This document shows, in pieces, positions 1,266-27,219 of a stretch of DNA of 34,702 nt. The stretch's first letter is position 1, and the number at the start of each line of letters is the position of its first letter. The position numbers and the translations under genes were made by a program. The stretch lies in NCBI GenBank assembly GCA_020437545.1, contig JAGQWH010000019.1:1-34702 (forward strand). The letters run 5' to 3'. Source of the DNA: Ignavibacteriota bacterium (GTDB lineage Bacteria > Bacteroidota > Ignavibacteria > Tepidaquicellales > Tepidaquicellaceae). Below the pieces are notes generated by a model. It made no database searches. It had not been told where the DNA came from and saw only the letters and a list, made by a program, of their open reading frames with translations.

Positions 1266-1323
1266 TTAAAAAAATCAAAAATCAAAAATCAAAAATCCCA
1301 AATCAAAAAAATCCCAAATCAAA
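1266..1323. repeat. 7-base tandem repeat (AAAAATC) abutting pyrE
   Basis: Runs of AAAAATC with a few CCCAAATC variants end at the base before the pyrE ATG, so the 5' leader of pyrE is made of repeat. One of many heptamer arrays in this window. Confidence 0.75.
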
Positions 1324-1905
1324 ATGACCAGCGAACAAATTTTAGACATATTCAAAAAGACCGGTGCAATGCTTGAAGGACATTTTGTTCTTACATCCGG
1401 TTATCACAGTCCGCATTATTTTCAGTGCGCAAAGGTTTTACAGTATCCTTACTGCAACAGTATGTTTGCCAGCGCTATTGCCGAAAAATTTTATGATAAA
1501 AATATCAATGTTGTAATATCTCCGGCTGTAGGCGGGATCGTATTCGGAACTGAGGTTGGAAGGCAACTTAATGTCAGAACGATTTTCAGTGAAAGAGAAA
1601 ATAATGTCATGACTTTAAGAAGAGGATTTGAACTCGGTAAAGGTGAAAATGTACTTATCTGCGAAGATGTAGTGACGACAGGCGGAAGTGTTTTTGAAGT
1701 GATCGATCTTGTAAAAAGGAGTGAGGCTAATTTATGCGGAGTGGGATTTATAGTTGACAGAAGCAATGGTGAAGTAGATTTCGGAACAGAGCAGTTTTCT
1801 CTTGCAAAAACCGAAGTTATAAAATATAAAGAAGATGAATTACCGGAGTGGCTGAAGAATATTCCGGTTACAAAACCCGGAAGCAGAGATATTAAAGGTA
1901 AATAG
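1324..1905 (+). CDS. pyrE: Orotate phosphoribosyltransferase
   Basis: Transfers the phosphoribosyl group of PRPP to orotate, giving OMP in pyrimidine synthesis. The PRPP-binding loop reads VLICEDVVTTGG (110-121), preceded by the substrate-binding LTSGYHSPHYF region near residue 23. The SPAVGGIVFG stretch (66-75) and the FSERE segment near 88 also fit PyrE. At 193 residues it is the length of the compact bacterial form. It starts with ATG immediately after a heptamer repeat, with no Shine-Dalgarno sequence. It stands alone, with a 196-base spacer before the next gene in which nothing recognisable was seen. Confidence 0.96.
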   Translation: MTSEQILDIFKKTGAMLEGHFVLTSGYHSPHYFQCAKVLQYPYCNSMFASAIAEKFYDKNINVVISPAVGGIVFGTEVGRQLNVRTIFSERENNVMTLRRGFELGKGENVLICEDVVTTGGSVFEVIDLVKRSEANLCGVGFIVDRSNGEVDFGTEQFSLAKTEVIKYKEDELPEWLKNIPVTKPGSRDIKGK

Positions 1906-2101
1906 TAATTGTATAATCATTTTTCACTTCACATTTCAAATAATTTAATCATTCAGGAATTAAGAAAACTTAAATGAATAATTTATAGGTTAGAATGATT
2001 ATTTCAGTAAAATTTATATAAGACAAAAATTTAATATTTAACCCAAAAATTAATATAACTATATTACAAGACTTTTTAACTAAAAATTAATAAACATATA
2101 A

Positions 2102-3247
2102 ATGGATTTTAACTTATCAGAACAGGAACTTGCGGTACAAAAGCTTGCAAGAGACTTTGCACAAAATGAGATCGCACCTTATATAATGGAGTTTGATGAA
2201 TCACAGGAATTTCCGATGGAAATTGCCCGGAAAATGGGTGAAATGGGTTTTCTCGGAATTATTTTTCCGGAAGAATACGGCGGAGCGCATTTCTCTACTG
2301 TAGAATATGCTTTGATTGTCGAAGAGATCTCTAAAGTCGATCCTTCAATGGGACTTACTATTGCTGCTCATAATGGATTATGTACAAATCATATTTACAG
2401 TTTTGCAAATGACGATTTAAAGAAAAAGTATCTTCCCGATCTTACTTCAGGGAAAAAGTTGGGTGCTTGGGGACTTACTGAAAATGTTTCAGGTAGTGAT
2501 GCAGGCGGTATGGCAACTACTGCGGTAAAGAAAGACGGCCATTATATACTTAACGGCAGCAAACTGTTTATCACACACGGAAGTGTCGGAGAAACATTTG
2601 TCGTGACTGCTGTAACTGATAAATCAAAAAGAAATAACGGTATATCCGCGTTTATTTTAGAAAAAGGTATGAAAGGATTTACAACCGGTAAAAAAGAAAA
2701 TAAACTCGGTATGAGATCATCTGATACTGCCGAATTAATTTTTGATAATGTAGAAGTTCCGGCTGAAAATCTGATCGGTGAAGAAGGACAGGGATTCAAA
2801 CAGTGCATGCAGATACTTGACGGCGGAAGAATTGCAATAGCGGCTCTTTCTCTCGGAATTGGTCAGGGTGCTCTTGATGCTTCAATTAAATATTCTAAAG
2901 AAAGAAAACAATTCGGAAAGTCACTTTCTGATTTTCAGGGAATACAGTTTAAATTATCCGATATGGCAACAGAACTTGACGCAGCTAGATTACTGGTAAT
3001 GAAAGCAGCATGGACAAAGGATCAGGGTAAAGAAATAAACCTGGTGGCTGCAATGGCAAAATATTATGCCAGTGAAGCAGCAACAAGAGCGACGAATGAA
3101 GCAATTCAGGTTCATGGCGGATACGGATTCATTAAAGAATTCCCTGTAGAGAAATTATACAGAGATGTTAAACTTATGACAATTGGTGAAGGTACTTCGG
3201 AAGTTCAGAAAATGGTGATCGCAAGGAATATTTTGAATATGTTTTAA
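2102..3247 (+). CDS. Acyl-CoA dehydrogenase (short/medium-chain type)
   Basis: An FAD enzyme that introduces the alpha-beta double bond into acyl-CoA and passes electrons to ETF. The 381 residues match the butyryl-CoA dehydrogenase class. The flavin-binding WGLTENVSGSDAGG segment is near residue 123, and RKQFGKSLSDFQGIQF near 268 is the family signature. The catalytic base is E363 in IGEGTSEVQ near the C terminus, the usual position for short-chain enzymes; the isovaleryl-CoA type has it elsewhere. VHGGYGFIKEFPVEKLYRD is also typical. No ETF or other beta-oxidation gene is adjacent, so the exact substrate is unknown. The 85 bases before the ATG are AT-rich with no clear ribosome site. Confidence 0.93.
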   Translation: MDFNLSEQELAVQKLARDFAQNEIAPYIMEFDESQEFPMEIARKMGEMGFLGIIFPEEYGGAHFSTVEYALIVEEISKVDPSMGLTIAAHNGLCTNHIYSFANDDLKKKYLPDLTSGKKLGAWGLTENVSGSDAGGMATTAVKKDGHYILNGSKLFITHGSVGETFVVTAVTDKSKRNNGISAFILEKGMKGFTTGKKENKLGMRSSDTAELIFDNVEVPAENLIGEEGQGFKQCMQILDGGRIAIAALSLGIGQGALDASIKYSKERKQFGKSLSDFQGIQFKLSDMATELDAARLLVMKAAWTKDQGKEINLVAAMAKYYASEAATRATNEAIQVHGGYGFIKEFPVEKLYRDVKLMTIGEGTSEVQKMVIARNILNMF

Positions 3248-3366
3248 TTAGTAGTGAGTAGTGAGTAGTGAGTAGTGAGTATTGAGTAGTGAGTAGTGAG
3301 TAGTGAGCATTGAGTATTGAGTATTGTGTAATGTGTATTGTGTATTGAGTAGTGCGTATTGAGTAT
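3248..3366. repeat. 7-base tandem repeat (AGTAGTG / ATTGAGT family)
   Basis: About 16 heptamers follow the acyl-CoA dehydrogenase stop, first AGTAGTG, then grading into ATTGAGT, ATTGTGT and similar. The gradual change of unit along the array suggests local duplication with drift. Confidence 0.85.
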
Positions 3367-3400
3367 TATTTTTTAAAAAGTTTTTAGCTTTAAACTTTTA

Positions 3401-3414
3401 TCCGTCGCGGCGGA
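3401..3414. repeat. GC-rich near-palindrome TCCGTCGCGGCGGA
   Basis: Differs by one base from the TCCGCCGCGGCGGA form. It sits between two different heptamer arrays. Confidence 0.6.
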
Positions 3415-3415
3415 T

Positions 3416-3521
3416 CAAACTTTTAACTTTCAACTTTTAACTTTCAACTTTTAACTTTCAACTTTTAACTTTCAACTTTTAACTTTCAACTTTTAACTTT
3501 CAACTTTTAACTTTTAACTCA
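3416..3521. repeat. 7-base tandem repeat (CAACTTT / TAACTTT)
   Basis: About 14 alternating CAACTTT and TAACTTT units end just upstream of the ftsY start, so any leader of ftsY consists of repeat. Confidence 0.85.
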
Positions 3522-3526
3522 AGAAT

Positions 3527-4471
3527 TTGTCTTTTCTGGATAAAATAGGTCTAAAAAAACTCAAAGACGGTTTAAATAAAACCAAGGAAAATCTGGTCGG
3601 TAAAGTAAACCGTCTGGTAAATGCTCGTGGTGTAATTGATGATGATTTTCTTGTTGAACTTGAGGAAATTTTACTCGCTTCTGATATTGGATTTGAGACT
3701 TCGGAAAAGCTTATAGAAAAGATAAAGGAACGAACTCTTACGGATAAATATGTCGATCAGGATGAACTTAATAAACTGATCAATGATGAATTAAAACGGG
3801 TATTTTATGATACGACCTCTGAGTTTAAGACATTTGATTTTAAATCAGAAATAAAGCCATTTGTAATAATGGTTGTAGGAGTGAACGGAGTCGGAAAAAC
3901 CACTTCAATTGGCAAGCTTGCATATAATTTTAAGAATGCAGGTAAATCGGTGCTCATCGGCTCGGCTGATACTTTCCGTGCAGCGGCAAACGATCAGCTT
4001 GATATATGGGCAAAGAGAGCAGGTGTTGAGATCATTCAGAGTAACAGTTCCTCTGATCCGGCGTCTATAGCTTTTGATACTATCAAATCCGGGTTATCAA
4101 AAAATACAGATGTCATTATAATTGACACTGCAGGAAGACTTCATAATAAGACCCATCTGATGGAAGAATTAAAAAAGATCAAACGCGTCATGCAGAAGGT
4201 AATTCCCGATGCGCCGCATGAGATCTTTATTGTCATAGATTCCACTACAGGACAAAACGGATTAAATCAGGCAAAGGAATTTTCCAATGCACTCAACGGA
4301 CTCACCGGTATAATACTTACCAAACTCGACGGTACCGCCAAAGGCGGCATCGTACTTAAGATCAATAAAGAAATGAAACTGCCTGTGAGATTTATCGGAG
4401 TAGGCGAACAAATAGACGATCTGCAGGTTTTTGAAAGTGAAAAATTTGTTGAAGCGATGTTTGGTAAATAG
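3527..4471 (+). CDS. ftsY: Signal recognition particle receptor FtsY
   Basis: The SRP receptor GTPase that docks SRP-ribosome complexes at the membrane. It is a short form (314 residues): an N-domain helical bundle followed by the G domain, with no long acidic A domain. The P-loop is GVNGVGKTT (118-126), then DTFRAAA (148-154), DTAGR (200-204) and TKLDG (265-269) followed by TAKGG. The start is TTG; in-frame stops in the upstream repeat exclude a longer protein, and the first Met (residue 115) is too far in. Upstream sequence is all heptamer repeat, with no ribosome site visible. Confidence 0.96.
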   Translation: MSFLDKIGLKKLKDGLNKTKENLVGKVNRLVNARGVIDDDFLVELEEILLASDIGFETSEKLIEKIKERTLTDKYVDQDELNKLINDELKRVFYDTTSEFKTFDFKSEIKPFVIMVVGVNGVGKTTSIGKLAYNFKNAGKSVLIGSADTFRAAANDQLDIWAKRAGVEIIQSNSSSDPASIAFDTIKSGLSKNTDVIIIDTAGRLHNKTHLMEELKKIKRVMQKVIPDAPHEIFIVIDSTTGQNGLNQAKEFSNALNGLTGIILTKLDGTAKGGIVLKINKEMKLPVRFIGVGEQIDDLQVFESEKFVEAMFGK

Positions 4472-4592: not shown

Positions 4593-6437
4593 TTGTCTGA
4601 CAATAAAATTAAAATATTACCCCAGTCCCTTTCAAATAAGATTGCAGCAGGTGAGGTTGTTAACCGGCCTGATTCTGCCGTGAAAGAACTTATTGAAAAT
4701 TCCATTGATGCAAAGGCTGATCACATTACTTTGATAATCCGGGATGCAGGCAAGAGTCTCATACAGATTATTGATAATGGGCAGGGAATGACGGAAGATG
4801 ATGCTGTAATGAGTCTTCAGAGACATTCTACAAGCAAGATCAGCAGTTATGAGGACATTGAGAATATTCTTACACTTGGTTTCCGTGGTGAAGCTCTCGC
4901 TTCCATCTCTTCGGTTTCTCAGATCGAACTAAAGACAAAAACCGCTTCTGAAGATGTAGGAGTTTTATTAAAGGCAGAGGGTGGTGAAGTTACGGAAATT
5001 TCCAAGACTCAATGCGAAACCGGTACTTCGATTGCAATCAGAAATCTTTTTTACAATACACCGGGAAGAAGAAATTTTCTGAAATCAGATCAGACGGAAT
5101 TCCGTCACATTTATGAAACATTTATCAGACTGGCAGTTTCAAATCCCGATACAGGTTTTAAATTTATTAATAATGACGAAGAGGTTTTTGATCTTAAGCC
5201 ATCATCTCTCAGGGAAAGACTGATAAATGTTTTCACAAACAAGATGTCTGAATCTCTTATTGAAGTTGATTATGGTAATGAGCTTATAAAGATCAAAGGT
5301 TTTATTTCCAAACCGAATTTTACAAAAAAATCAAAACAGGATCAGTACTTTTATCTTAACAACCGATTCTTTGTAAGTAAGTCTCTTAACTTTTCCGTCT
5401 ATACCGGCTATGATGATCTGATCGAGAAAGGGGACTATCCTTCCTTTTTTCTTTTTATTGAAATTGATCCGAAGAAAGTTGATGTCAATGTCCATCCCTC
5501 AAAGATGGAAGTTAAATTTGAAGATGAAAGCGCTGTCTTTGGTTTTGTAAGAAGAGCCGTAAAGGAAGCACTTAAAAAAGCTGATCTTGTCTTCGAGGTT
5601 GGATTTGATTCCAAACTTGATCTTCCGGACACGCAGGAAAGTTTTCATTACAAACAGTCGGGAAATACATCAGGTCAGAAATTTTCCGGGAGTTCAAATT
5701 ACCAGAGAAGAGATTTTGATATCCCCAAAAGGGAAAATACTTCAAATATACATTCTATTTTCGAAGCATCAAGAAAGCCTGAAGAGATTGAAGAAAATGA
5801 TGAGTTTGCAATCCCGCAGGCAGACGAACAAAAAAATATATTCGAGCATACAAAAAAATCTGATTCCGAATCATTTAATGTATGGCAGTATCAGTATAAA
5901 TATGTAATGTGTCAGACTGAGACCGGACTTATGATCATTGATCAGCATGCAGCTCACGAAAGGATCCTGTATGAAAAAGCCCTGCTCTGGATGGAATCTC
6001 AATCATCTTTTTCACAACAGCTTCTTATTCCCATTAAATTGAATCTTACAAAAATTGATTATCACATAGCCGAATCATTAAAGGATGATCTTCAGAATCT
6101 TGGATTTAATTTTGTACTTACATCCGGTGATAACATTCAACTAACGGGAATTCCTTCAGATGTAAAAATCGGAAATGAGAATAAAATATTTCAGGAGCTT
6201 ATTGATCAGTACAAGGAATATGAACTCAAATTAAATCTTGCCAAAAGAGATAATCTTGCAAAATCTTTTGCCTGCAGAAGCGCCATCAAAACAGGCGACA
6301 AACTCACTTATCAGATGATGATCGGCTTAATAGATAATCTGTTTGCTTCAAAGATGCCTTATGTCTGTCCGCACGGCAGGCCGACTGTGATAAGGATCAC
6401 TACAGACGAACTTGATAAGAGATTCAGCAGAACCTGA
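4593..6437 (+). CDS. mutL: DNA mismatch repair protein MutL (endonuclease type)
   Basis: Couples mismatch recognition by MutS to strand incision. The N-terminal GHKL ATPase has KELIENSIDA (31-40; E32 general base, N36 magnesium ligand), DNGQGM (61-66) and GFRGEALASISSV. A poorly conserved linker spans roughly 345-430. The C-terminal dimer domain carries the metal-binding endonuclease motif DQHAAHERILYE (450-461), plus ACR near 560 and CPHGRPT (592-598), so this MutL should nick DNA, unlike E. coli MutL. The start is TTG, four codons before the conserved IKILP; there is no ATG alternative. No mutS is in the window. Confidence 0.97.
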   Translation: MSDNKIKILPQSLSNKIAAGEVVNRPDSAVKELIENSIDAKADHITLIIRDAGKSLIQIIDNGQGMTEDDAVMSLQRHSTSKISSYEDIENILTLGFRGEALASISSVSQIELKTKTASEDVGVLLKAEGGEVTEISKTQCETGTSIAIRNLFYNTPGRRNFLKSDQTEFRHIYETFIRLAVSNPDTGFKFINNDEEVFDLKPSSLRERLINVFTNKMSESLIEVDYGNELIKIKGFISKPNFTKKSKQDQYFYLNNRFFVSKSLNFSVYTGYDDLIEKGDYPSFFLFIEIDPKKVDVNVHPSKMEVKFEDESAVFGFVRRAVKEALKKADLVFEVGFDSKLDLPDTQESFHYKQSGNTSGQKFSGSSNYQRRDFDIPKRENTSNIHSIFEASRKPEEIEENDEFAIPQADEQKNIFEHTKKSDSESFNVWQYQYKYVMCQTETGLMIIDQHAAHERILYEKALLWMESQSSFSQQLLIPIKLNLTKIDYHIAESLKDDLQNLGFNFVLTSGDNIQLTGIPSDVKIGNENKIFQELIDQYKEYELKLNLAKRDNLAKSFACRSAIKTGDKLTYQMMIGLIDNLFASKMPYVCPHGRPTVIRITTDELDKRFSRT

Positions 6438-6469
6438 TAAATTAAGTTTTTCTTTTACAATCATTTCAT

Positions 6470-6477
6470 TAATTTTG
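6470..6477 (+). promoter_or_regulatory. Bacteroidota-type -7 promoter element before the DUF4126 gene
   Basis: TAATTTTG fits TAnnTTTG and ends 13 bases before the ATG, which would leave only a few bases of leader. Confidence 0.4.
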
Positions 6478-6490
6478 AAAAAAAATTAAA

Positions 6491-7090
6491 ATGGAAATAG
6501 GTCTTGGAATTTTACTTGGAATAGGACTTGCCGCTAGCTGCGGCTTCAGAGTTTTCCTTCCGATGCTTGTAACTAATATCGCTTCTTTGCTCGGATATCT
6601 TGATCTCGCTCCCGGATTTGAATGGATGGGGAGCTGGGTTGCATTTGCTGCATTTCTTGTGGCAGCCATTGTTGAAGTTGGTGCTTATTATATTCCATGG
6701 CTAGATAATGCTCTTGATACGATATCAGGTCCGCTTGCTATGATAGCCGGAACAGTTCTTACAGCTTCATTTCTGACAGATATAAATCCTCTTGTTCAAT
6801 GGACTCTTGGGATAATTGTCGGAGGAGGAACTGCGGGGATTGTAAAAGTTGGAGCAAGCGCTGCAAGACTTACTTCATCTGCAACTACAGGCGGTCTGGG
6901 AAATCATGCCGTCGCAACTACCGAAAATGTAATGTCTGTCGTAACTTCCATTCTTGCATTCATATTACCTTTCATTACTGCATTTATCGTGATCGTAATT
7001 ATTGTTTATCTCATCAGAAAATTTAATGAACTCAGAAGAACAAAATGGCTCTTCAGAAATAAACATGAAAGCATTCCACCGATGAATTGA
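6491..7090 (+). CDS. DUF4126 family membrane protein
   Basis: A hydrophobic 199-residue protein with about five membrane segments: roughly 5-35, 45-68, 80-98, 103-120 and 148-175. The N-terminal GIGLAASCGFRVFLPML and the internal VEVGAYYIPWLDNALDTIS are what I recognise as DUF4126, a family without an assigned function. Glycine-rich GIIVGGGTAGIVK (near residue 108) is followed by a conserved small-residue stretch. The C-terminal tail, RKFNELRRTKW, is basic and likely cytoplasmic. It follows mutL by 53 bases but has its own promoter-like word. The gene ends inside the first unit of a heptamer repeat. Confidence 0.8.
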   Translation: MEIGLGILLGIGLAASCGFRVFLPMLVTNIASLLGYLDLAPGFEWMGSWVAFAAFLVAAIVEVGAYYIPWLDNALDTISGPLAMIAGTVLTASFLTDINPLVQWTLGIIVGGGTAGIVKVGASAARLTSSATTGGLGNHAVATTENVMSVVTSILAFILPFITAFIVIVIIVYLIRKFNELRRTKWLFRNKHESIPPMN

Positions 7091-7166
7091 GTATTGAGTA
7101 TTGAGTATTGAGTATTGAGTATTGAGTATTGAGTATTGAGTATTGAGTATTGAGTATTGAGTATTG
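7087..7166. repeat. 7-base tandem repeat (ATTGAGT)
   Basis: Eleven near-identical ATTGAGT units, among the most uniform arrays in the window. They fill the space between two convergent genes and begin within the stop region of the DUF4126 gene. Confidence 0.9.
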
Positions 7167-7170
7167 TTGG

Positions 7171-7213
7171 AAACTATCAACTATCAATTATCAACTATCA
7201 ACTATCAACTATT
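7171..7213. repeat. 7-base tandem repeat (CAACTAT)
   Basis: Six CAACTAT/CAATTAT units. On the minus strand they supply the stop codon and the last few codons (IVDS) of the DinB-like gene, so the repeat reaches into coding sequence. Confidence 0.8.
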
Positions 7214-7638
7214 CTTCTGTGATAATTTATCTGACCGATGTGATATGACAGATGTGATATAAGTCTTGAGAAAATAAAACCGTAAGTGACATTTTTACCA
7301 AATTTATCGATCGGGTAAATTTTATTTACATCTTCCAAAGTCAGTCCGTCAAATACTTTTTCCATCACGATAATTGTTTCATCAACTTCTCTTATCAGTT
7401 CTTCCCTGCCGACATTTTTCCGGGAAAATTCAAGATCTCTTTCTCTGATATATCCGGTATTTCCAAGAATGGCACCGTAGAAATGTTTTAAGTTGCCGCA
7501 TAAATGCAAACATAAATTTCCGGGAGTATTTGAAATTTCACCTTCGAGTTTCCATATATTCTCTTCGTTTTTGTATAAAGATATCTCGTTCTTCAGAGCA
7601 TTTAAAAAATCTATGTATAATTGTATATAAGAATTCAC
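7198..7638 (-). CDS. DinB-like (DUF1572-type) metal-binding protein
   Basis: A 146-residue four-helix-bundle protein of the DinB/YfiT-like superfamily, often linked to thiol-dependent transferases or damage-induced functions, but no reaction can be assigned. The likely metal ligands are all present: H45 in LCLHLCGNL, and H129 and H133 in SHLSYHIGQINYH. It lies 19 bases downstream of the E1 dehydrogenase on the same strand and may be co-transcribed with it. Its last residues and stop codon are encoded by a heptamer repeat, so its natural C terminus may have been altered by repeat growth. Confidence 0.82.
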   Translation of the reverse strand: MNSYIQLYIDFLNALKNEISLYKNEENIWKLEGEISNTPGNLCLHLCGNLKHFYGAILGNTGYIRERDLEFSRKNVGREELIREVDETIIVMEKVFDGLTLEDVNKIYPIDKFGKNVTYGFIFSRLISHLSYHIGQINYHRRIVDS

Positions 7639-7657
7639 AATAAAATAACTTTATAAA

Positions 7658-10081
7658 CTAATAAAAGATCGGATACTTAGCTGGTTCAGCTTCATTCATC
7701 ATTTCATAAACATATTCAAAAATATCTTCGGAATTAGGTTTGGTAAAATAATCTCCGTCAGTTCCGTAAGGAGGTCTGTGTGCATAAGCCGAAAGACATT
7801 TTGGCGGTGAATCAAGATATCTGTAACCGCCGTCTCTGTCCAGCACATTCTGCATCATGAATGCAGATGCGCCTCCGGGTACGTCTTCATCAAGGAAAAG
7901 AATCCTGTTGGTTTTTTTAAGGGATTCAAGTATGATCTTATTAATATCAAAAGGAAGAAGTGTCTGAACGTCTATCAGTTCGCAGCTGATATCAAAATCA
8001 GAAAGTTTGCCTATTGCATCACGTGCAATATCAACGCAAGCTCCGTAAGTAACTATCGTCACATCACTTCCTTCCGTAAGTATCTCAGGGATACCAAGGG
8101 GAACACATACTTCGCTTAGATTTTCCGGTAATCTTTCCTTTAATCTGTATCCGTTAAGTCTCTCTACTATCAGCGCAGGTTCATCTGATTGCAACATTGT
8201 ATTGTAAAAACCTGCGGCGCGTGTCATATCTCTCGGAACACATACTCGCACACCTCTGAAACAATTTATGATCGTTCCCATCGGCGAACCCGAATGCCAT
8301 ATTCCCTCGAGTCTGTGTCCTCTGGTTCTTACTATGACAGGGGACTTCTGACCGCCAACTGTTCTGTATTGCAGACAGGCAAGGTCATCACTTATGATCT
8401 GAAGCGCGTAAAAAAGATAATCAAGATATTGGATCTCAACAATCGGTCTGAGTCCTCTTAAAGCAGCGCCGATTCCCTGACCTGCTATGGTAGCTTCCCG
8501 GATACCGGTATCAGTTAGTCTGAGTTCACCGTATTTTTCCTGAAGTCCTGCCATACCCTGATTCACATCACCGAGTTTACCAAGATCTTCACCGATTGCA
8601 AATATCCTCGGATCTCTTTCAAATGCTATATCAAAGAATGCATTCAGAACTTCTCTTCCGTCAAGGACTTTGGAGAATTCATTATAAACCGGCTTGACTT
8701 CTTTTACATTTAATGCGGATTCCTTTGATTCGCTGTGCAAATGTGAACAGTATCTTCGTCTGTTTTCTTCGTAAAAATTATTTCTCCATTTTTTAAGTTT
8801 GTCCTTCTCAGCTATATTTTCACCTGCTGTAATTCGTAGTACATCGTTAATTGCTTCAGATATGACCCTGCGGTTATTGTCCAGTGTTTTCTTTAATGAA
8901 TCAGATATAGTCTTGATCTTTGCAGAATGTTCACTCTTTGAAGAGATCTCATCTATTATCTCTCTGGCTTCAGTATTTTCTTTTTTGATTGGTGTAACAT
9001 AATCCATCCAGGCTTCTTTCTGAACCTTCTTTACATATTCTTTTGCATTATTTTCTATCTCATCCAGCTCTTCCTCAGTTGCAATTGCTTCCTCTATCAT
9101 CCATTTTTTCATCTGGACAATACAGCAGTATTCTTTTTCCCATTCGAGTCTTTCGGCTGATTTATATCTTTCATGTGAACCCGATGTAGAATGTCCCTGC
9201 GGCTGTGTTACTTCCTGCACATGAAACAATGCAGGGATGTGATCTCTCCGGGTAATCTCAATTCCTTTCTGATACATGGCAACCAACTCCTGATAATCCC
9301 ATCCTTTTGCTGTATAAATATTAAATCCCTGACCTTTTTCCTGATCATATTCAAAACCTTTTAACAGTTCGGATATATTCTCTTTGGTGATCTGATATTT
9401 GCTCGGTACCGAAATTCCGTATCCGTCATCCCAAACAGAAACAGCCATTGGCACCATCAGTACTGATGCTGCATTCATTGCTTCAAAGAATAAACCCTCA
9501 GCGCAACTTGCATTTCCTATAGTTCCGAATGCAACTTCATTTCCTTTATTTGAAAATGAGGTCATATCCTGAATTTGTTTATTGTTTCTGTATAGTTTTG
9601 ATGCATAAGCAAGGCCAACAAGTCTGATCATCTGACTGGCGGTAGGGGAGATATCGGCAGCTGAGTTTTTTGATTCCATTAGATTCTTCCATTCGCCGTT
9701 ATCATCCAAAAGTCTGTTTGAAAAATGCCCGTTCATAGATCTTCCGCCGGAAGAAGGCTCAAGTTCTACATTAGTATCAGCATAAAGCTGAGCAAAAAAC
9801 TCCTTGATAGTTGACATTCCTGTCGCAAAAGCAAGTGTCTGATCTCTGTAATATCCGGATCTGAAATCACCATTCTGAAAAACTTTTGCCATGGCAATCT
9901 GAGCAACTTCTTTTCCGTCGCCGAAAATTCCGAATTTTGCTTTACCGGTGAGAACTTCTTTTCTTCCGAGAAGGCTGGCCTGTCTGCTTTCGCAGGCAAG
10001 TTTGAAATCTGCTAATACTTCTTTTTTATAATCTTCAAATGTGGATTTACCGTTAGTTGATATCTTTGACTGTTTTTTCAT
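7658..10081 (-). CDS. 2-oxoacid dehydrogenase E1 component, alpha/beta fusion
   Basis: A thiamine-diphosphate enzyme that decarboxylates a 2-oxoacid and acylates the lipoyl group of E2. At 807 residues it joins both E1 subunits. The alpha part (about 20-370) contains YRDQTLAFATGMS, the GGRSMNGHFS loop and a TPP-site segment starting GNASCAEG (189-196). The beta part (from about 480) has AIGEDLGKLGDVNQG, RLTDTGIREATIAGQG and VEIQYLDY, followed by a transketolase C-terminal domain with VTIVTYGA and LLPFD. The organisation resembles branched-chain (2-oxoisovalerate) E1 fusions common in Bacteroidota, though pyruvate cannot be excluded. E2 and E3 genes are not nearby. A TAnnTTTG word sits 14 bases before the ATG. 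Confidence 0.92.
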   Translation of the reverse strand: MKKQSKISTNGKSTFEDYKKEVLADFKLACESRQASLLGRKEVLTGKAKFGIFGDGKEVAQIAMAKVFQNGDFRSGYYRDQTLAFATGMSTIKEFFAQLYADTNVELEPSSGGRSMNGHFSNRLLDDNGEWKNLMESKNSAADISPTASQMIRLVGLAYASKLYRNNKQIQDMTSFSNKGNEVAFGTIGNASCAEGLFFEAMNAASVLMVPMAVSVWDDGYGISVPSKYQITKENISELLKGFEYDQEKGQGFNIYTAKGWDYQELVAMYQKGIEITRRDHIPALFHVQEVTQPQGHSTSGSHERYKSAERLEWEKEYCCIVQMKKWMIEEAIATEEELDEIENNAKEYVKKVQKEAWMDYVTPIKKENTEAREIIDEISSKSEHSAKIKTISDSLKKTLDNNRRVISEAINDVLRITAGENIAEKDKLKKWRNNFYEENRRRYCSHLHSESKESALNVKEVKPVYNEFSKVLDGREVLNAFFDIAFERDPRIFAIGEDLGKLGDVNQGMAGLQEKYGELRLTDTGIREATIAGQGIGAALRGLRPIVEIQYLDYLFYALQIISDDLACLQYRTVGGQKSPVIVRTRGHRLEGIWHSGSPMGTIINCFRGVRVCVPRDMTRAAGFYNTMLQSDEPALIVERLNGYRLKERLPENLSEVCVPLGIPEILTEGSDVTIVTYGACVDIARDAIGKLSDFDISCELIDVQTLLPFDINKIILESLKKTNRILFLDEDVPGGASAFMMQNVLDRDGGYRYLDSPPKCLSAYAHRPPYGTDGDYFTKPNSEDIFEYVYEMMNEAEPAKYPIFY

Positions 10082-20223: not shown

Positions 20224-21462
20224 ATGGAACCTGTTAATTTAAGTATTACTGAAGAGGCATCTGATTTTGTTTTTCATTTAATGAAAAGTAATTTGCCGGG
20301 AGTATATGTATATCATAATTACAGACATACAACTGAAGTTGTGGACAATGTCAGGAAACTCAGCAAAAAATCCGGATTGTCCGACGAGGATACTGAGATC
20401 GTAACACTGGCTGCATGGTTTCATGATTCAGGGTTTATAAAACAATGTGATAACCATGAAGATGTAAGTATTGAAATTGCAACGAAATTCCTGAAAGAAA
20501 AAAATTATCCGGAAGAAAAACTTGACAAAGTGATAGACTGCATTAACGCTACAAGATATCCTACAAATCCGCAGAATGTGCTGGAAGAGATAATCTGTGA
20601 TGCGGATCTTTTTCATCTCGGAACTGAAAATTACGAAGATAAAACTGATCTTCTCAGACTTGAATGGGAAAAATCAAAAGATAAGATCTATACTGAACTC
20701 GAATGGCTCAAACTTAATATTGATTTTCTTACCAATCATAAATTCTACACCAGATACGCCAAGAAAAATCTTGAAGAGAATAAACTGAATGCATTACTGA
20801 AAATGCAGAAAGCTTATCGTAAGAGGATTGAAAAGAAAGAGGACGATATAAAGAAGAAAGAAAAAATGGAAATTGATAAACTAAAGATCGAATCAAAAAA
20901 GGATTCCGGGACAAAAGCTGACAGGGGAATTGAAACTATGTTCAGGAATACCGTCAGAACTCATGTAGAGTTCAGCGGTATGGCCGACAATAAAGCCAAT
21001 ATCATGATCAGTATAAACACTTTGATAATTGGCGGGATTGTAACTGTTCTTCTGAGAAAACTTGATACTAATCCGCAGCTCATTATTCCGACTTTAATGC
21101 TTGTACTTGTGAGTCTTGTCTGTATTGTATTCGGTGTACTTGTCACAAGACCAAATATAACTTCCGGTAAATTCACAACAGAAGATATAAAACAGAAGAG
21201 AGCTAATTTATTATTCTTCGGTAATTTTTTCAATATGGGTCTGAAAGAATTTCAGTGGGGGATGCAGGAAATGATGAACGACAAAGAGTTTCTTTACGGG
21301 AGCATGATAAAAGATTTTTACTTTCTCGGACAGGTACTGGGTAGAAAATACAAGTATCTCAGAATTTGTTACACGATCTTTATGTATGGATTAATAGCTT
21401 CGGTGATTGCATATATAATTGCGTTTATGTTTATACCTGTTCAGGATTTTGAAGTATTCTGA
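20224..21462 (+). CDS. HD-domain phosphohydrolase fused to a Pycsar-type transmembrane effector (PycTM) domain
   Basis: A 412-residue, two-part protein. Residues 25-185 are an HD metal-dependent phosphohydrolase with H35 (YRHTTEV), the H67-D68 pair (WFHDSGF), H78 and a late Asp in CDADLFHLG. A charged coiled coil (about 190-235) follows. The C-terminal 175 residues look like the Pycsar effector membrane domain (PF18967, formerly DUF5706): VEFSGMADNKANIMISINTL, helices at about 259-278 and 286-307, a soluble hairpin and a last helix at about 383-404. In Pycsar defence, PycTM disrupts the membrane when a cyclic pyrimidine nucleotide accumulates. An attached HD domain could destroy such a signal. 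Similar fusions are, as I recall, widespread in Bacteroidota, so a housekeeping role is possible. Confidence 0.82.
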   Translation: MEPVNLSITEEASDFVFHLMKSNLPGVYVYHNYRHTTEVVDNVRKLSKKSGLSDEDTEIVTLAAWFHDSGFIKQCDNHEDVSIEIATKFLKEKNYPEEKLDKVIDCINATRYPTNPQNVLEEIICDADLFHLGTENYEDKTDLLRLEWEKSKDKIYTELEWLKLNIDFLTNHKFYTRYAKKNLEENKLNALLKMQKAYRKRIEKKEDDIKKKEKMEIDKLKIESKKDSGTKADRGIETMFRNTVRTHVEFSGMADNKANIMISINTLIIGGIVTVLLRKLDTNPQLIIPTLMLVLVSLVCIVFGVLVTRPNITSGKFTTEDIKQKRANLLFFGNFFNMGLKEFQWGMQEMMNDKEFLYGSMIKDFYFLGQVLGRKYKYLRICYTIFMYGLIASVIAYIIAFMFIPVQDFEVF

Positions 21463-21465
21463 TAG

Positions 21466-21544
21466 AGCAGTTGAAAGTTGAAAGTTAAAAGTTAAAAGTT
21501 AAAAGTTAAAAGTTGAAAGTTGAAAGTTGAAAGTTGAAAGTTGA
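21466..21544. repeat. 7-base tandem repeat (GTTGAAA / GTTAAAA)
   Basis: About eleven heptamers, the reverse complement of the CAACTTT/TAACTTT array at 3416-3521. It starts right after the HD-PycTM stop. Confidence 0.85.
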
Positions 21545-21570
21545 TAGGAATACAAATTTTCCGGACGAAA

Positions 21571-21603
21571 TACACAATACACAATACTCAATACACAATA
21601 CAA
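21571..21603. repeat. 7-base tandem repeat (ACACAAT)
   Basis: Four to five ACACAAT/ACTCAAT units immediately before the sixA start. A longer frame through them encodes an IHNTQYTIQ-like leader that is not expected in this family. Confidence 0.75.
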
Positions 21604-21609
21604 AAGAAT

Positions 21610-22113
21610 ATGAGCAAAACACTATATCTTATCCGACATGCCAAATCAAGCTGGGATGATCCTTCATTAAGGGATCACGACAGACCTTTGAATAAAAGAG
21701 GCAAGAGAGATGCGCCATTTATGGCAAAAATATTAAAAGAGAAAAATTTAAAACCTGATCTTATGATCTCAAGCACAGCCGAAAGAGCAGTTGAGTTTGC
21801 AAAGGTGCTGGCTGAAGAACTGGATTATAAGAAAAAAGATATTATAGCAGAAAAAGAGATGTATATGGCAGGGGAGTCGGAGATGCTTGAGATACTGCAG
21901 GGAGTCGATGACAAACACGATACAGTTTTCATGGTTGGTCATAATCCCTATATTACTTCTTTTGCTGTAAGATTGAGCGGACATCCAATTGATAATATAC
22001 CGACCTCCGGCATAGTTGGAATAAGTTTTGATATTGATAAATGGAGTGACGCTGAAATTGGAAAGGGGAAGTTTGAATCTTTTGATTATCCTAAAAAATA
22101 TTCTCAGGAATGA
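21610..22113 (+). CDS. sixA: SixA-type phosphohistidine phosphatase
   Basis: A 167-residue histidine-phosphatase superfamily protein. LYLIRHAKSSWDD at the N terminus holds the catalytic RHG-like RHA motif; SSTAERAVEFAKVL and FMVGHNPYITSFA supply the second arginine and the second catalytic histidine. Short length and the RHAKS motif fit SixA, which removes phosphate from phosphohistidine in phosphorelay or PTS-type proteins; the substrate here is unknown. A TTG at 21541 in the same frame would add 23 residues made from an ACACAAT repeat; the ATG at 21610, next to the conserved core, is the better start. It ends convergent to the cyclase gene. Confidence 0.88.
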   Translation: MSKTLYLIRHAKSSWDDPSLRDHDRPLNKRGKRDAPFMAKILKEKNLKPDLMISSTAERAVEFAKVLAEELDYKKKDIIAEKEMYMAGESEMLEILQGVDDKHDTVFMVGHNPYITSFAVRLSGHPIDNIPTSGIVGISFDIDKWSDAEIGKGKFESFDYPKKYSQE

Positions 22114-22540: not shown

Positions 22541-23641
22541 CTAAGATACCTGGCTGCTTGCGACGAGGTTATTCATTTCAGGCTGAATTTCTTCAACTGA
22601 TATTAATTCAAGTTCTTTTTCTTTTCCTCTTAAAATTATATTACCCATGCTTTCGGTACTGTAGTATCCTTTCAGATCAAGTTCATTATTCAGATCTTCA
22701 GAGATCAAAACTCTTTTTCGGAAATTATTGCATTCAGCCTGAATGCGTGCTGCTGTGTTTATTGTATCACCGTGATATACAATATCTTTCTTGATCTCTC
22801 CCATTTCTCCGGTTATGACAGGTCCTATATGAAGTCCCGCTTTGAATTCAGGATAGACACCGTAGTTATTCAAATAGTAATCTTTCTTTAATAATATCTT
22901 GTTTTGAATTGCAAAAAAACAGTTTATGCAATTATTGTATTCAATTCCTTCCTGCGGCTTCCAGGTCAGAACAACTTCATCTCCAACATATTGATAGATG
23001 TTTCCTTTATATTCAAGAATCGGTTCGGTCATATCATGAAAAAAATCATTCAGAAATTCATGGTTCTTTACAAGACCAAGTTTTTCGGCTATTGTAGTTG
23101 ATGATTTAAGATCAAGAAACATGAATATAAGTTCTTCTTCAAGAGGCGTTTGATATTTTCCTCTCAGGTAATTCAGCATTACATTCTGACCTAATAGCTT
23201 GTTGATCTGAAGAATGAAATTTATGATAAAGCTCAGTAAAATAAGATAAATAATAATGTCAGAGAATTCCTCGCTTTTAATATAATCCATCATCGTACCG
23301 CCGTTATCTCTGATTACGTCATAATATTGTTTCCCGAATCTTGCACCCAGATTGAGTATTCCTACAAGTATTATTAAAATTGCTGCAACTAATGTAAAAA
23401 AAGCTGTTCTGATAATCAGGGTTGCAGTAAAAGATAATCTTCTGAATCTTTTTGAGAAAAAATATATATCTACCGATGAAATTATAAATCCGAATAAAAA
23501 TCCGATTATTATATCATCCAGCATCGCAAAGGGTTTCAATCCGTGATCAATTAATGCGAGGAAAAATGCACCTATTGAAGTTGTTATAGTGAAGTATTTA
23601 ATTGACTTAAGATTTCTTTTCGTCTGTCTGGAAAGTTTCAT
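22541..23641 (-). CDS. Membrane-bound class III nucleotide cyclase
   Basis: A 366-residue protein with four predicted membrane helices (about 16-35, 41-62, 71-98 and 127-150) and a C-terminal class III cyclase domain (about 165-345). The metal-binding aspartates are D177 (MFLDLKSST) and D221 (YVGDE). Transition-state residues N295 and R299 are present in HGDTINTAAR. The usual purine-recognising Lys four residues before D221 is Q217 (IYQYVGDE), so the base used is not clear from sequence; cAMP, cGMP or a cyclic pyrimidine product are all possible. It starts 31 bases after the Omp85 fusion gene on the same strand, so the two probably share a transcript. The neighbouring PycTM gene is convergent and separated by sixA. 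Confidence 0.9.
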   Translation of the reverse strand: MKLSRQTKRNLKSIKYFTITTSIGAFFLALIDHGLKPFAMLDDIIIGFLFGFIISSVDIYFFSKRFRRLSFTATLIIRTAFFTLVAAILIILVGILNLGARFGKQYYDVIRDNGGTMMDYIKSEEFSDIIIYLILLSFIINFILQINKLLGQNVMLNYLRGKYQTPLEEELIFMFLDLKSSTTIAEKLGLVKNHEFLNDFFHDMTEPILEYKGNIYQYVGDEVVLTWKPQEGIEYNNCINCFFAIQNKILLKKDYYLNNYGVYPEFKAGLHIGPVITGEMGEIKKDIVYHGDTINTAARIQAECNNFRKRVLISEDLNNELDLKGYYSTESMGNIILRGKEKELELISVEEIQPEMNNLVASSQVS

Positions 23642-23672: not shown

Positions 23673-26207
23673 TTACAGAAAAAGTCCGCTTCCGACAAAT
23701 ACTTTATAACCCTCATCAGACTTTGCAACCGTTACGCCTATATTCATCGATCTTTGAAGATATGTGATCCACATTGTTGCACCAAAAGAACTGTGCCATC
23801 TTTTGGAATCTTCTCCATTCAGAAAAACCCTGCCTGTGCCGCCGAATAATGAAAGTCCTAATGTGCCCGGAATTATAACATTAATTCTTGTTAATCCCAT
23901 TCTTACTTCAGCCTCGCCCAGCAATACACCGTCTCCTGCAAATCTTTCTCTTGAGAAACCTTTTAAAGAATTAGCTCCGCCGAGAAAAACTGATTCATAG
24001 AAAGGAAAATCACCCCATACTTTTCCGGCACCGCCCCTGAAGGCAAACGTAACTCCTTTTACGGTATCAGTTGTAACATAGGCTCTGATATCAATCCCTG
24101 CTTTACCGAACCCGTAATTGTTCGGAAAAAGATCAGGAGTCCAGTTTCCAAGTGCCTGAGCATAAATCCCTGAATATGGCTCCATTATATTATCCCTGCT
24201 GTCATACTGAAATATTGTATTGATACCGGCATAACTTATTCTACCTATTCCATAAGTATTCGTATCCTGTCCAAGCAATGTATTCTGATCATAACTTACA
24301 TTTGCATGTTTATAAAAAGGTGTAAGTCTTAATTCTGATTTTTTTCCAAATGGAATATAAAAAGTAGGAGCGACTCTGAATAATTCCTGCTTCACATCAT
24401 AATATTTTATGTCCTGAAGACTGTCGCTGTATGGAGTTTCATTTCCTTCTCCGAAATATCTGGTTATGGCAAGCTGTGTTTGTTCTATAGCAAGATTGAT
24501 GTGAGTGTTTTTTATTATTGTATAAAAGTCACCGTAGTATTTAAAATTATAACTTTCAGCATTGAATGCGTAGCTGCCTGTGAGTTCCATTCTGTAGACA
24601 TAAGGCATTGCCCGGAATCCATATTTATAAAAAACCGGTCCGCCTCCTATCTCAAGACCATTATCAGTATCGAAATTTAACACAGGAGTGAATCTCCATT
24701 CCGTACCTCTGTCTTCCACTGCCGGCTCGTACCTTTCTTTGAGATCTTTCTTTGGTCTTATATCTGTATAATAATCTATACTGTTATCTTTATTTCCTTT
24801 TACCCTTAGCTTTTGTTTGTCTTTAATGACTCGTATATCAATTCCGCTGTTATCTTCGCCGTTTATCTCCAGTATGTCTTTTCCTTCATTGAGATAAATT
24901 CTGATCTCATCTGTATATTCTTCGTCAAACACTTTCTGAAAAAACGGCTCTCCTTTTCTTTCATTGGTTTCTTTGTCAAGCTTGAACATTTTGACTTCCA
25001 CTTTGTCATCACCGATATTGTTTATTTCAATGAATTCGCTTTTATCGCTTGCATAGACATCTGCTGTTTGATTTATCAATTCATAATATTCATCTACAAT
25101 ATCTTTAAGCTGATTCTTTCTTGAAATTATCATGTCAGTTAAATACTTACCTTCTTTTTTATAAAGATTATCCGGCAATTGTTTGACTGACTTTCTGATA
25201 ATGTCGTCGGTAATAGTATTTTGTATAAGAACTGCTATAGAGTCAAATTGTTCTTTTGAAGCTTCCGGTAAAAATCTTCTGTCCACATATCGTCCGTTCC
25301 ATGAAAGATCATATATTCTCGGATAATTTTTCCCGTAGCCTTCGATCTGAGTCACATATTCACCGACAAAGAAAGGTATCACACCATCATACAAACAAAA
25401 CGCCTGATCCCTGTCCCTCGGTATTGGTTTATAGATCAGTTTACCGTCTTCTTCAAATCCTGCCCATACCCACTGATCAGAATGTCTGTCCCAGTCGCCG
25501 ATCATAAGATCAAACATCCGGGCTTTCAGAAATTCTACTGGATCAACCTTTACGTCATTATCCTTTTCTAATTTTTTATAAAGTTTAAATGACTTGGTTA
25601 TCTTATCTGACTCACCAAAACCTTTTTCACCTTCTTCATTTCCGTCTTCCGGATTTTCTTCAATGGTTCCGAGTACATTTCCAAAATCTTTTCTGTATTC
25701 TCCTAATTTTTCATCATCCGGCATATACACTATTGTAGGAACTGAATTTATGATACCGAGCTGATTCAGCATTGAAGCAACAATCACTGCAGCAAATGGA
25801 TTTGATGTACTTATCTGATCCTGAAATGCATCAGCGACTATTGTATTCTTAAGATCATCCGGCAGTATCTTGGAAGGATCTTTGTCTATGGATCTGAATT
25901 TATAAACCTTTCCGTCTTCACCTTTCAATCTTAAAGATTTGGTCTGCAGACCGCCTCCCCGTTTAAACGGAGTCAGTCCTCCGGCATATTTATCAAGATT
26001 TAATATGTCCGCTTCAAAAGGAGTTGTCCAGAGATCGCGCCAGTGCTTTCCGAGAAATATCTCAGCAAATCCGCTGATTTCGTATTCACTGCCGGCTACA
26101 ACTTTTTTCTTTCCCGAATAATAATCAGCAGTTGCTCCTGTGTCCGGCTGAGAAAATACCGGACGGATCGATATGCAAAAAATAAAAAGTAATAACTTTA
26201 ATTTCAT
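23673..26207 (-). CDS. Omp85-family outer-membrane barrel with an N-terminal kinase-like region
   Basis: An 844-residue exported protein with a signal peptide (1-19, ending VFS). The C-terminal 350 residues are a BamA/TamA-type barrel: SRDNIMEPYSGIYA, then VFLGGANSLKGFSRERFAGD and a final aromatic strand ending GSGLFL. There are no clear POTRA domains. Instead residues 75-275 resemble a HipA/FAM20-like kinase: an N-lobe-like strand pair (LQTKSLRLKG, VYKFRSIDKDP), a helix at 122-150, the loop GDWDRHSDQW (237-246) and PIPRDRDQAF (261-270), which match the catalytic DRHxxN/E and metal-binding Asp motifs. Kinase activity is inference, and the domain would sit in the periplasm, where ATP is scarce. 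It is followed by the cyclase gene. Confidence 0.78.
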   Translation of the reverse strand: MKLKLLLFIFCISIRPVFSQPDTGATADYYSGKKKVVAGSEYEISGFAEIFLGKHWRDLWTTPFEADILNLDKYAGGLTPFKRGGGLQTKSLRLKGEDGKVYKFRSIDKDPSKILPDDLKNTIVADAFQDQISTSNPFAAVIVASMLNQLGIINSVPTIVYMPDDEKLGEYRKDFGNVLGTIEENPEDGNEEGEKGFGESDKITKSFKLYKKLEKDNDVKVDPVEFLKARMFDLMIGDWDRHSDQWVWAGFEEDGKLIYKPIPRDRDQAFCLYDGVIPFFVGEYVTQIEGYGKNYPRIYDLSWNGRYVDRRFLPEASKEQFDSIAVLIQNTITDDIIRKSVKQLPDNLYKKEGKYLTDMIISRKNQLKDIVDEYYELINQTADVYASDKSEFIEINNIGDDKVEVKMFKLDKETNERKGEPFFQKVFDEEYTDEIRIYLNEGKDILEINGEDNSGIDIRVIKDKQKLRVKGNKDNSIDYYTDIRPKKDLKERYEPAVEDRGTEWRFTPVLNFDTDNGLEIGGGPVFYKYGFRAMPYVYRMELTGSYAFNAESYNFKYYGDFYTIIKNTHINLAIEQTQLAITRYFGEGNETPYSDSLQDIKYYDVKQELFRVAPTFYIPFGKKSELRLTPFYKHANVSYDQNTLLGQDTNTYGIGRISYAGINTIFQYDSRDNIMEPYSGIYAQALGNWTPDLFPNNYGFGKAGIDIRAYVTTDTVKGVTFAFRGGAGKVWGDFPFYESVFLGGANSLKGFSRERFAGDGVLLGEAEVRMGLTRINVIIPGTLGLSLFGGTGRVFLNGEDSKRWHSSFGATMWITYLQRSMNIGVTVAKSDEGYKVFVGSGLFL

Positions 26208-26295: not shown

Positions 26296-27219
26296 TTATT
26301 TTACCAAAGGGTAAACAACTAAATTTGCACGATCTTTTTTACCTTCATTACTGATATACATTGTACCGTCCTGAAGAAAGGTGATTCCTTCCGGCTGAGC
26401 ATGGATCTTACCGGGAAGTTTTTCATTTCCCATAACTATCCCTTCATTTGAGACTTCAACTATCTCATTCCCGTTTGCTGCGATCACAAAAAATGTTCCC
26501 GTGAGATGATTATATTCAATTCCTGACGGATTAAAATAGTCTTTTATTTCAGATCTCTTTAACACAAATCTTGGCTCCGGATTAAACTTCATGTCTGATA
26601 ATGAAAATGAATAAACAGCTTTATCATCCCTGTTATTTGTTCCTGATTTTCCTTTTGTTATCAGTAACAATGTGTTTGTTTTTGGATCAAAACACATTCC
26701 TTCCACATCATTCTCTTTTGAGAGATCAGTTTTGTATAATTTATAATTGACTGCCTCTCCGTCAACCCCTTCGCTGAATTCATAAATATCTCCATTGCTG
26801 TGAAGCATGTAAAACTTATTATTGGCAAATGCAATATCTTCAAAGTCCTTTCGTAAAGGTGGTTCTCCGAGATAAAATCTCTTGATCACTTCACCGGTCT
26901 CTGTATTCAGCTGATAAACAATTCCGTCTTCATCCTGCTGTGCAAACATTCTTCCGTCCGGAGTCATGGTCAGACCGGATATTTCTTTTAATTCTTTTGA
27001 AAGTTCTATTATGCGGGGATCGTTTGAACTTATGTCATATTTTGATAATTCACTGTTTGAAATTTTATCGGATGAACTTTTTTTTTCTTCGGTGAACTCT
27101 TTTTCAGATGATGAATTAACTTTAGCAGTCTTATCCTTTGAACATGAACTGAAGATAAGAAGAATCAATAAAAATAATATTAATTTGTATTTTATCAGCA
27201 TAATAAATGAATGTTCCAA
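26296..27219 (-). CDS. SdiA-regulated-family lipoprotein (beta-propeller)
   Basis: An exported lipoprotein of up to 307 residues. The lipobox is FSSC after a hydrophobic run; the in-frame ATG at 27201 (Met7, MLIKYKLILFLL) gives a more normal signal peptide than the ATG at 27219. A Ser/Lys-rich linker follows, then a six-bladed-propeller-like domain: LKEISGLTMTPDGRMFAQQDEDGIVYQL, FEDIAFANNKFYMLHSNGDIYEF, DVEGMCFDPKTNTLLLITK, PSGIEYNHLTGTFFVIAANG and QPEGITFLQDGTMYISNEG. This repeat style matches the SdiA-regulated (YjiK) family; its function is unknown. It follows nothing on the same strand closely and lies 88 bases upstream of the Omp85 fusion, so it could be the head of that operon. Confidence 0.82.
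   Translation of the reverse strand: MEHSFIMLIKYKLILFLLILLIFSSCSKDKTAKVNSSSEKEFTEEKKSSSDKISNSELSKYDISSNDPRIIELSKELKEISGLTMTPDGRMFAQQDEDGIVYQLNTETGEVIKRFYLGEPPLRKDFEDIAFANNKFYMLHSNGDIYEFSEGVDGEAVNYKLYKTDLSKENDVEGMCFDPKTNTLLLITKGKSGTNNRDDKAVYSFSLSDMKFNPEPRFVLKRSEIKDYFNPSGIEYNHLTGTFFVIAANGNEIVEVSNEGIVMGNEKLPGKIHAQPEGITFLQDGTMYISNEGKKDRANLVVYPLVK

Follow-up and report, generated by a model that had tools for sequence, protein, structure and literature searches.

An Omp85 barrel protein with a predicted kinase-like domain in the position of POTRA domains, from an uncatalogued family of Ignavibacteria and other bacteria

A gene in the window, the 34,702-nucleotide stretch of an Ignavibacteriota contig (JAGQWH010000019.1) analyzed here, encodes an Omp85 barrel preceded by a conserved, kinase-like domain. 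The protein is probably an extracytoplasmic, periplasm-facing phosphotransferase with a CotH/PI4KII-type fold, anchored in the outer membrane by its barrel, a reading that was given a probability of about 0.6. The domain belongs to a large family that is missing from Pfam and NCBIfam, and what this family brings to the outer membrane is a conserved kinase-like domain, in many members as part of one chain with a phosphatase. A literature search, with preprints and most subscription papers outside its reach, returned no description of a kinase-Omp85 fusion. Kinases dedicated to phosphorylation outside the cytoplasm are well established in animals (Fam20C), and to our knowledge such extracytoplasmic kinases are hardly known in Gram-negative bacteria. 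If active, the family would open up periplasmic phosphosignalling or envelope modification in Bacteroidota, and would raise the question of the phosphate donor.

Domain layout and predicted fold

The open reading frame with a signal peptide described in the first-pass annotation was recovered on the minus strand, and the motifs GDWDRHSDQW (237–246) and PIPRDRDQAF (261–270) and the N-lobe-like block (86–111) that it listed were confirmed by direct reading. Its claim of an Omp85 barrel devoid of POTRA domains was also borne out. The full-length AlphaFold2 model (residues 23–844; pLDDT 91.3, pTM 0.86) had 16 long strands starting at about residue 502, and comparison of the barrel with Sam50, BamA and TamA structures gave Z scores of about 25 over ~305 residues. 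PF01103 matched residues 539–805 above its cut-off (E = 1e-10), and the NCBIfam model Omp85_fam matched at E = 1e-25, under the curated cut-off of that model. The barrel, with 16 strands and an Omp85 profile, is a member of the Omp85 superfamily. No POTRA domain was recognized by Pfam or present in the model, in which the kinase domain and an all-beta linker stand before the barrel; POTRA domains are not obligatory in all Omp85 subfamilies (PMC4104836). The family consensus of the linker has a GGxGxD-like pattern reminiscent of RTX calcium-binding repeats, and PF00353 matched one member at a non-significant E of 0.022.

Table 1. Features of the kinase-like/Omp85 gene and of its neighbors in the window.
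Feature	Residues	Positions	Strand	Details
Kinase-like/Omp85 fusion gene		23673..26207	-	844 aa, open reading frame
Signal peptide MKLKLLLFIFCISIRPVFSQ	1-20	26148..26207	-	typical; read directly from sequence
Protein-kinase-like domain (predicted)	~30-385	25053..26120	-	AlphaFold2 model; Foldseek/VIA-align 2 matches
N-lobe block GGGLQTKSLRL...YKFRSIDKDP	84-111	25875..25958	-	alignments; R105, K109 nearly invariant
Putative catalytic-loop motif GDWDRHSDQW	237-246	25470..25499	-	conservation; aligns with CotH GNWD, CtkA GNFDRHNGNW
Putative metal-binding DxD motif PIPRDRDQAF	261-270	25398..25427	-	conservation; aligns with CotH IPYDYD
All-beta linker domain	~386-497	24717..25052	-	model secondary structure; between kinase domain and barrel
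Omp85 beta-barrel, 16 strands	~502-844	23676..24704	-	PF01103, model, structure comparison
SdiA-regulated family lipoprotein		26296..27219	-	PF06977, E=1.4e-13; directly upstream of kinase-Omp85 gene
Class III adenylate/guanylate cyclase		22541..23641	-	PF00211, E=2e-12; directly downstream, 31-base gap
SixA-like histidine phosphatase		21541..22113	+	PF00300
HD + PycTM membrane protein		20224..21462	+	PF18967 and PF01966

No Pfam or NCBIfam family was recognized in residues 20–510 of the window protein, and in the 81 homologues searched no Pfam model convincingly spanned the kinase-like domain. The AlphaFold2 model of this domain, made from the family alignment (pLDDT 92.9, pTM 0.92), predicted a two-lobed protein-kinase-like (PKL) fold, in agreement with the earlier guess of a kinase. 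A Foldseek search against the PDB placed CtkA first (E 3.9e-6) and PI4KIIalpha second (6e-5), and the lower matches were mainly kinases, with HipT and Fam20C near 5e-3. When VIA-align 2 was run on Foldseek's matches, CotH (5jd9) ranked top (Z 14.9, rmsd 3.8 Å over 243 residues), tied with PI4KIIbeta (Z 14.7) and followed by CtkA (13.8), with VPS34, HipA and Fam20C (Z 10.4 for Fam20C) below. A chance resemblance of the motifs within an unrelated fold is extremely improbable. Such a reading would suit a domain that is unrecognized by Pfam and NCBIfam and for which phmmer of the single sequence against PDB sequences found nothing convincing (matches to HDAC6 and similar proteins were weak and unrelated), but it is already contradicted by the high-confidence model and by the top ranking of kinases in two programs.

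At the sequence level, hhalign against 25 CotH proteins scored 36.5, compared with a maximum of 27.0 in a null of 60 column permutations, and paired DWD..IPRDRD of the family with NWD..IPYDYD of CotH. The single-comparison E was 0.0016 and the HH-suite probability just 16%, so that the fold carries most of the weight and the link at the level of sequence is suggestive. HipA (PF07804) was rejected as the nearest sequence relative, because its score of 21.2 fell inside the permuted null (up to 22.9). The kinase interpretation of the first-pass annotation was supported, as neither of the outcomes that it named as refuting, an unrelated predicted fold or poorly conserved Asp, Arg and His residues, was observed; the refinement concerns the nearest kin. 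Together, the comparisons support CotH or PI4KII rather than HipA as nearest relative, with CotH closest by sequence profile and CotH, PI4KII and CtkA about tied by fold. The CotH model PF08757 itself had no matches in 81 members at E up to 0.1, none in the window kinase domain even at E 10, and none in the window genome at 1e-10. Against PDB sequences the family profile matched only CtkA (E = 0.17), which is not significant by itself. The CotH mutants D228Q and D251A were reported inactive (PMC7821199), and profile and motif, rather than superposition, point to D240 and D265/D267 as the probable equivalents of these CotH residues.

Residue conservation, distribution and architectures

Across 151 homologues from several phyla, R230 and D233 were invariant (151 each), and the residues that the first-pass annotation had singled out were almost so (141–150 of 151): D238 was kept in 150, D240 in 141, R241 in 143, H242 in 145, and the DxD pair D265 and D267 in 148 and 147, respectively. 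The N-lobe and hinge residues R105 (147 of 151), K109 (149) and E183 (148) were conserved, whereas K103 was not, and no conserved classical beta3 Lys was apparent. In 20 close homologues (39–93% identity), GDWDRHxDQW and PxPxDRDQAF were invariant at nearly every position. The alignments confirmed that the motifs are not a chance feature, and the putative catalytic and metal-binding Asp residues are conserved, as a PKL fold demands. The position of the metal-binding Asn of CtkA and HipA is mostly Gln (Q245 in 140 of 151), which counts against the kinase reading, as do the apparent lack of a conserved beta3 Lys and the D240 substitutions described next.

Some small groups departed from these motifs. 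Two lipoprotein paralogues carry D240S/H242R and read DWSRREDQW, and four degenerate sequences, including L174 and L196–L198, have lost several motif residues; both sets may be pseudokinases. Most of the family appears equipped for catalysis, with a small number of probable pseudokinases. Six phosphatase-kinase-barrel proteins of Hymenobacter (L052, L058, L059, L061, L063, and L095) read DFGKHxDNW, with Gly for D240; D238 may substitute in this group, or its members may be pseudokinases. Their genes adjoin a Ppx/GppA gene, and PPK1 too in most. Loci L156 (629–5648) and L157 (636–3975) hold clusters of barrel-free, lipoprotein-like kinase-domain paralogues, one per cluster being DWSRREDQW.

A genome search of relatives found homologues of the domain in 22 of 59, and 112 of the 296 sampled genomes of the window's phylum (about a third) contained it. 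A scan of genome contigs yielded at least 583 coding stretches with the domain, and the 80 that were kept came from Ignavibacteria, other Bacteroidota, Gemmatimonadota, Calditrichota, Acidobacteriota and a deltaproteobacterial MAG. A virus-borne origin of the family was rejected, since IMG/VR held no viral relatives detectable with the two patterns used.

The family occurred as kinase-barrel proteins, as phosphatase-kinase-barrel proteins, and as barrel-free lipoprotein or membrane-anchored forms. Complete members varied little in the distance that separates the catalytic motif from the C-terminus (~605–660 residues). An extra N-terminal calcineurin-like domain (PF00149) was present in half of the 80 loci and in 25 of an additional 40, each taken from a different genome, and a few genomes (L023, L024) encode the PF00149 phosphatase in a gene of its own, directly upstream. 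In L024, two same-strand kinase-barrel genes (1313–3958 and 6001–8622) flank an SdiA-regulated gene and a phosphatase gene. Barrel-free proteins of ~430 aa consist of the kinase domain and an N-terminal membrane segment, and several of the barrel-free forms of ~500–590 aa have a lipobox-like cysteine. In the cases read, the domain was always accompanied by a barrel, a lipobox-like Cys, a signal peptide or an N-terminal membrane segment. A tree of 151 domains required 13 changes between architectures, a count that includes some contig-end fragments, implying that gain or loss was repeated.

These distributions bear on whether the domain might be a pseudokinase adaptor, which would transfer no phosphate but bind nucleotide, metal or a partner and, in the manner of POTRA domains, handle clients for the barrel while outer-membrane proteins are assembled or transported. 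This role appears unlikely, even though the domain occupies exactly the POTRA position, Omp85 proteins generally act in assembly or translocation (PMC4104836), Q245 is non-canonical, no conserved beta3 Lys is apparent, and a few sequences show clear degeneration. Well over 90% of the 151 divergent homologues retain the catalytic-type Asp and His residues, unlike in drifting pseudoenzymes, and the domain also exists barrel-free, which argues that serving a barrel is not its main role.

Gene neighborhood and the polyphosphate link

The kinase gene had an SdiA-regulated gene as its direct upstream neighbor in 21 of the 80 and 11 of the 40 loci, and nearby in 18 of 40 genomes. The cyclase gene, 31 bases downstream on the same strand, is probably co-transcribed with the kinase-Omp85 gene, and a cyclase was found near the kinase gene in 15 of the 80 loci; the window cyclase has apparent membrane helices. 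The SixA-like orthologue in L022 matched TIGR00249 (sixA) at E = 6e-19, under the cut-off. HD-PycTM genes were near the kinase gene in 34 of the 80 and 28 of the 40 loci. PF18967 is named after Pycsar defence effectors, and because this gene stands beside kinase-Omp85 in most genomes examined it looks housekeeping, so that the defence label may mislead here. Searches of PDB sequences with the neighboring phosphatase and SdiA-regulated proteins gave no matches.

The gene set of the window recurs in other Ignavibacteria and beyond with polyphosphate kinase 1 (PPK1) inserted, the identity of which is secure (TIGR03705, 794 bits). Of 53 genomes compared, 17, representing 10 families, had PPK1 no more than 10 kb away from the domain, whereas copy number and genome size would predict ~0.4; the genomes counted are related by descent, so that such neighborhood counts are not independent. 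Ppx/GppA, PAP2 and SixA were also among the neighbors. The window's own genome has PPK1 on another contig than the kinase-Omp85 gene, and the polyphosphate link is therefore a family-level clue rather than a fact about the window gene. That the family is often fused to a phosphatase and often beside polyphosphate genes suggests a phosphorylation system outside the cytoplasm.

PKL folds also perform other chemistry, which counts against the kinase reading. An enzyme of this fold with another chemistry or target, such as AMPylation, or phosphorylation of a lipid or polyphosphate instead of a protein, is possible, if doubtful: the lipid kinase PI4KII is tied with CotH in fold, the domain adjoins a membrane, and PPK1, Ppx/GppA, PAP2 and SixA are neighbors, but the substrate cannot be read from the fold, and the sequence profile favors CotH, a protein kinase.

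Proposed role and relation to known systems

The fold, conservation, architecture and neighborhood are results of the computation, and the activity, topology, donor and substrate proposed here are inferred. The protein would be exported by Sec and its barrel inserted by BAM, the barrel serving mainly as an anchor that holds the kinase domain at the inner face of the outer membrane. This domain would face the periplasm, because the N-termini of Omp85 proteins are periplasmic, as is the enzymatic domain of PlpD (PMC11116518). A surface-exposed kinase that the barrel would let through to the outside, in the way originally suggested for type Vd secretion, is very unlikely. It would follow the older type Vd model for PlpD and the passengers exported by some Omp85/TpsB proteins (PMC4104836), but newer work puts the enzymatic domain of PlpD in the periplasm (PMC11116518), and relatives that lack the barrel are either lipoproteins or proteins with a membrane segment at the N-terminus.

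In the periplasm-facing phosphotransferase, D240 would act, together with H242, as the Asp of the catalytic loop and D265/D267 as the metal-binding pair, and R105, K109 and E183 would bind nucleotide. The target may be a cell-envelope substrate, whether protein, lipid or glycan, and in many relatives the calcineurin-like phosphatase domain of the same chain would oppose the phosphorylation. The polyphosphate-related gene island suggests a link between the reaction and the status of phosphate or polyphosphate. Because ATP is regarded as absent from the periplasm, the phosphate donor is the main difficulty of the kinase reading; exported nucleotide or polyphosphate is a possible donor. A more far-reaching reading is that the outer membrane widely carries a kinase-phosphatase system: envelope substrates in the periplasm would be phosphorylated by the CotH-like domains and dephosphorylated by the calcineurin-like domains fused to them, with polyphosphate or exported nucleotide instead of cytosolic ATP as phosphate source and a tie to the adjacent ppk1/sixA/cyclase island. 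As a whole, this reading is quite unlikely.

Among known systems, the CotH kinases (PF08757; Bacillus spore-coat kinase, 5jd9/5jda) were the best VIA-align 2 match, with the catalytic Asp and DxD aligned. In contrast to CotH, the family has an extra Asp two residues earlier (D238), a DRHxDQW loop, another N-lobe motif (RSxxKDP) and an outer-membrane barrel, and is not recognized by PF08757. CtkA of Helicobacter pylori was the best Foldseek match, and its GNFDRHNGNW aligns with GDWDRHxDQW; however, CtkA/HipA-type proteins are cytoplasmic toxins or effectors without a barrel, and the family has Gln for their metal-binding Asn. The PI4KII lipid kinases and Fam20C secretory kinases have the PKL fold in common with the family, and Fam20C also works outside the cytosol, but both are eukaryotic and without an Omp85 domain, and no sequence-level match to them was found. 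Riemerella OMP76 was set aside as an unrelated TonB-type receptor. The Omp85 'Metallo' subfamily combines PF00149 with a barrel (Heinz and Lithgow, 2014; PMC4104836), and since in about half of the homologues the kinase-like domain lies between PF00149 and an Omp85 barrel, many are probably 'Metallo' proteins, although the window protein is without the phosphatase domain; a kinase is not mentioned in that paper (0 occurrences). Patatin-like PlpD has an enzymatic domain N-terminal to its barrel and facing the periplasm (PMC11116518), the arrangement proposed here, although that domain is a phospholipase rather than kinase-like and one POTRA domain is retained.
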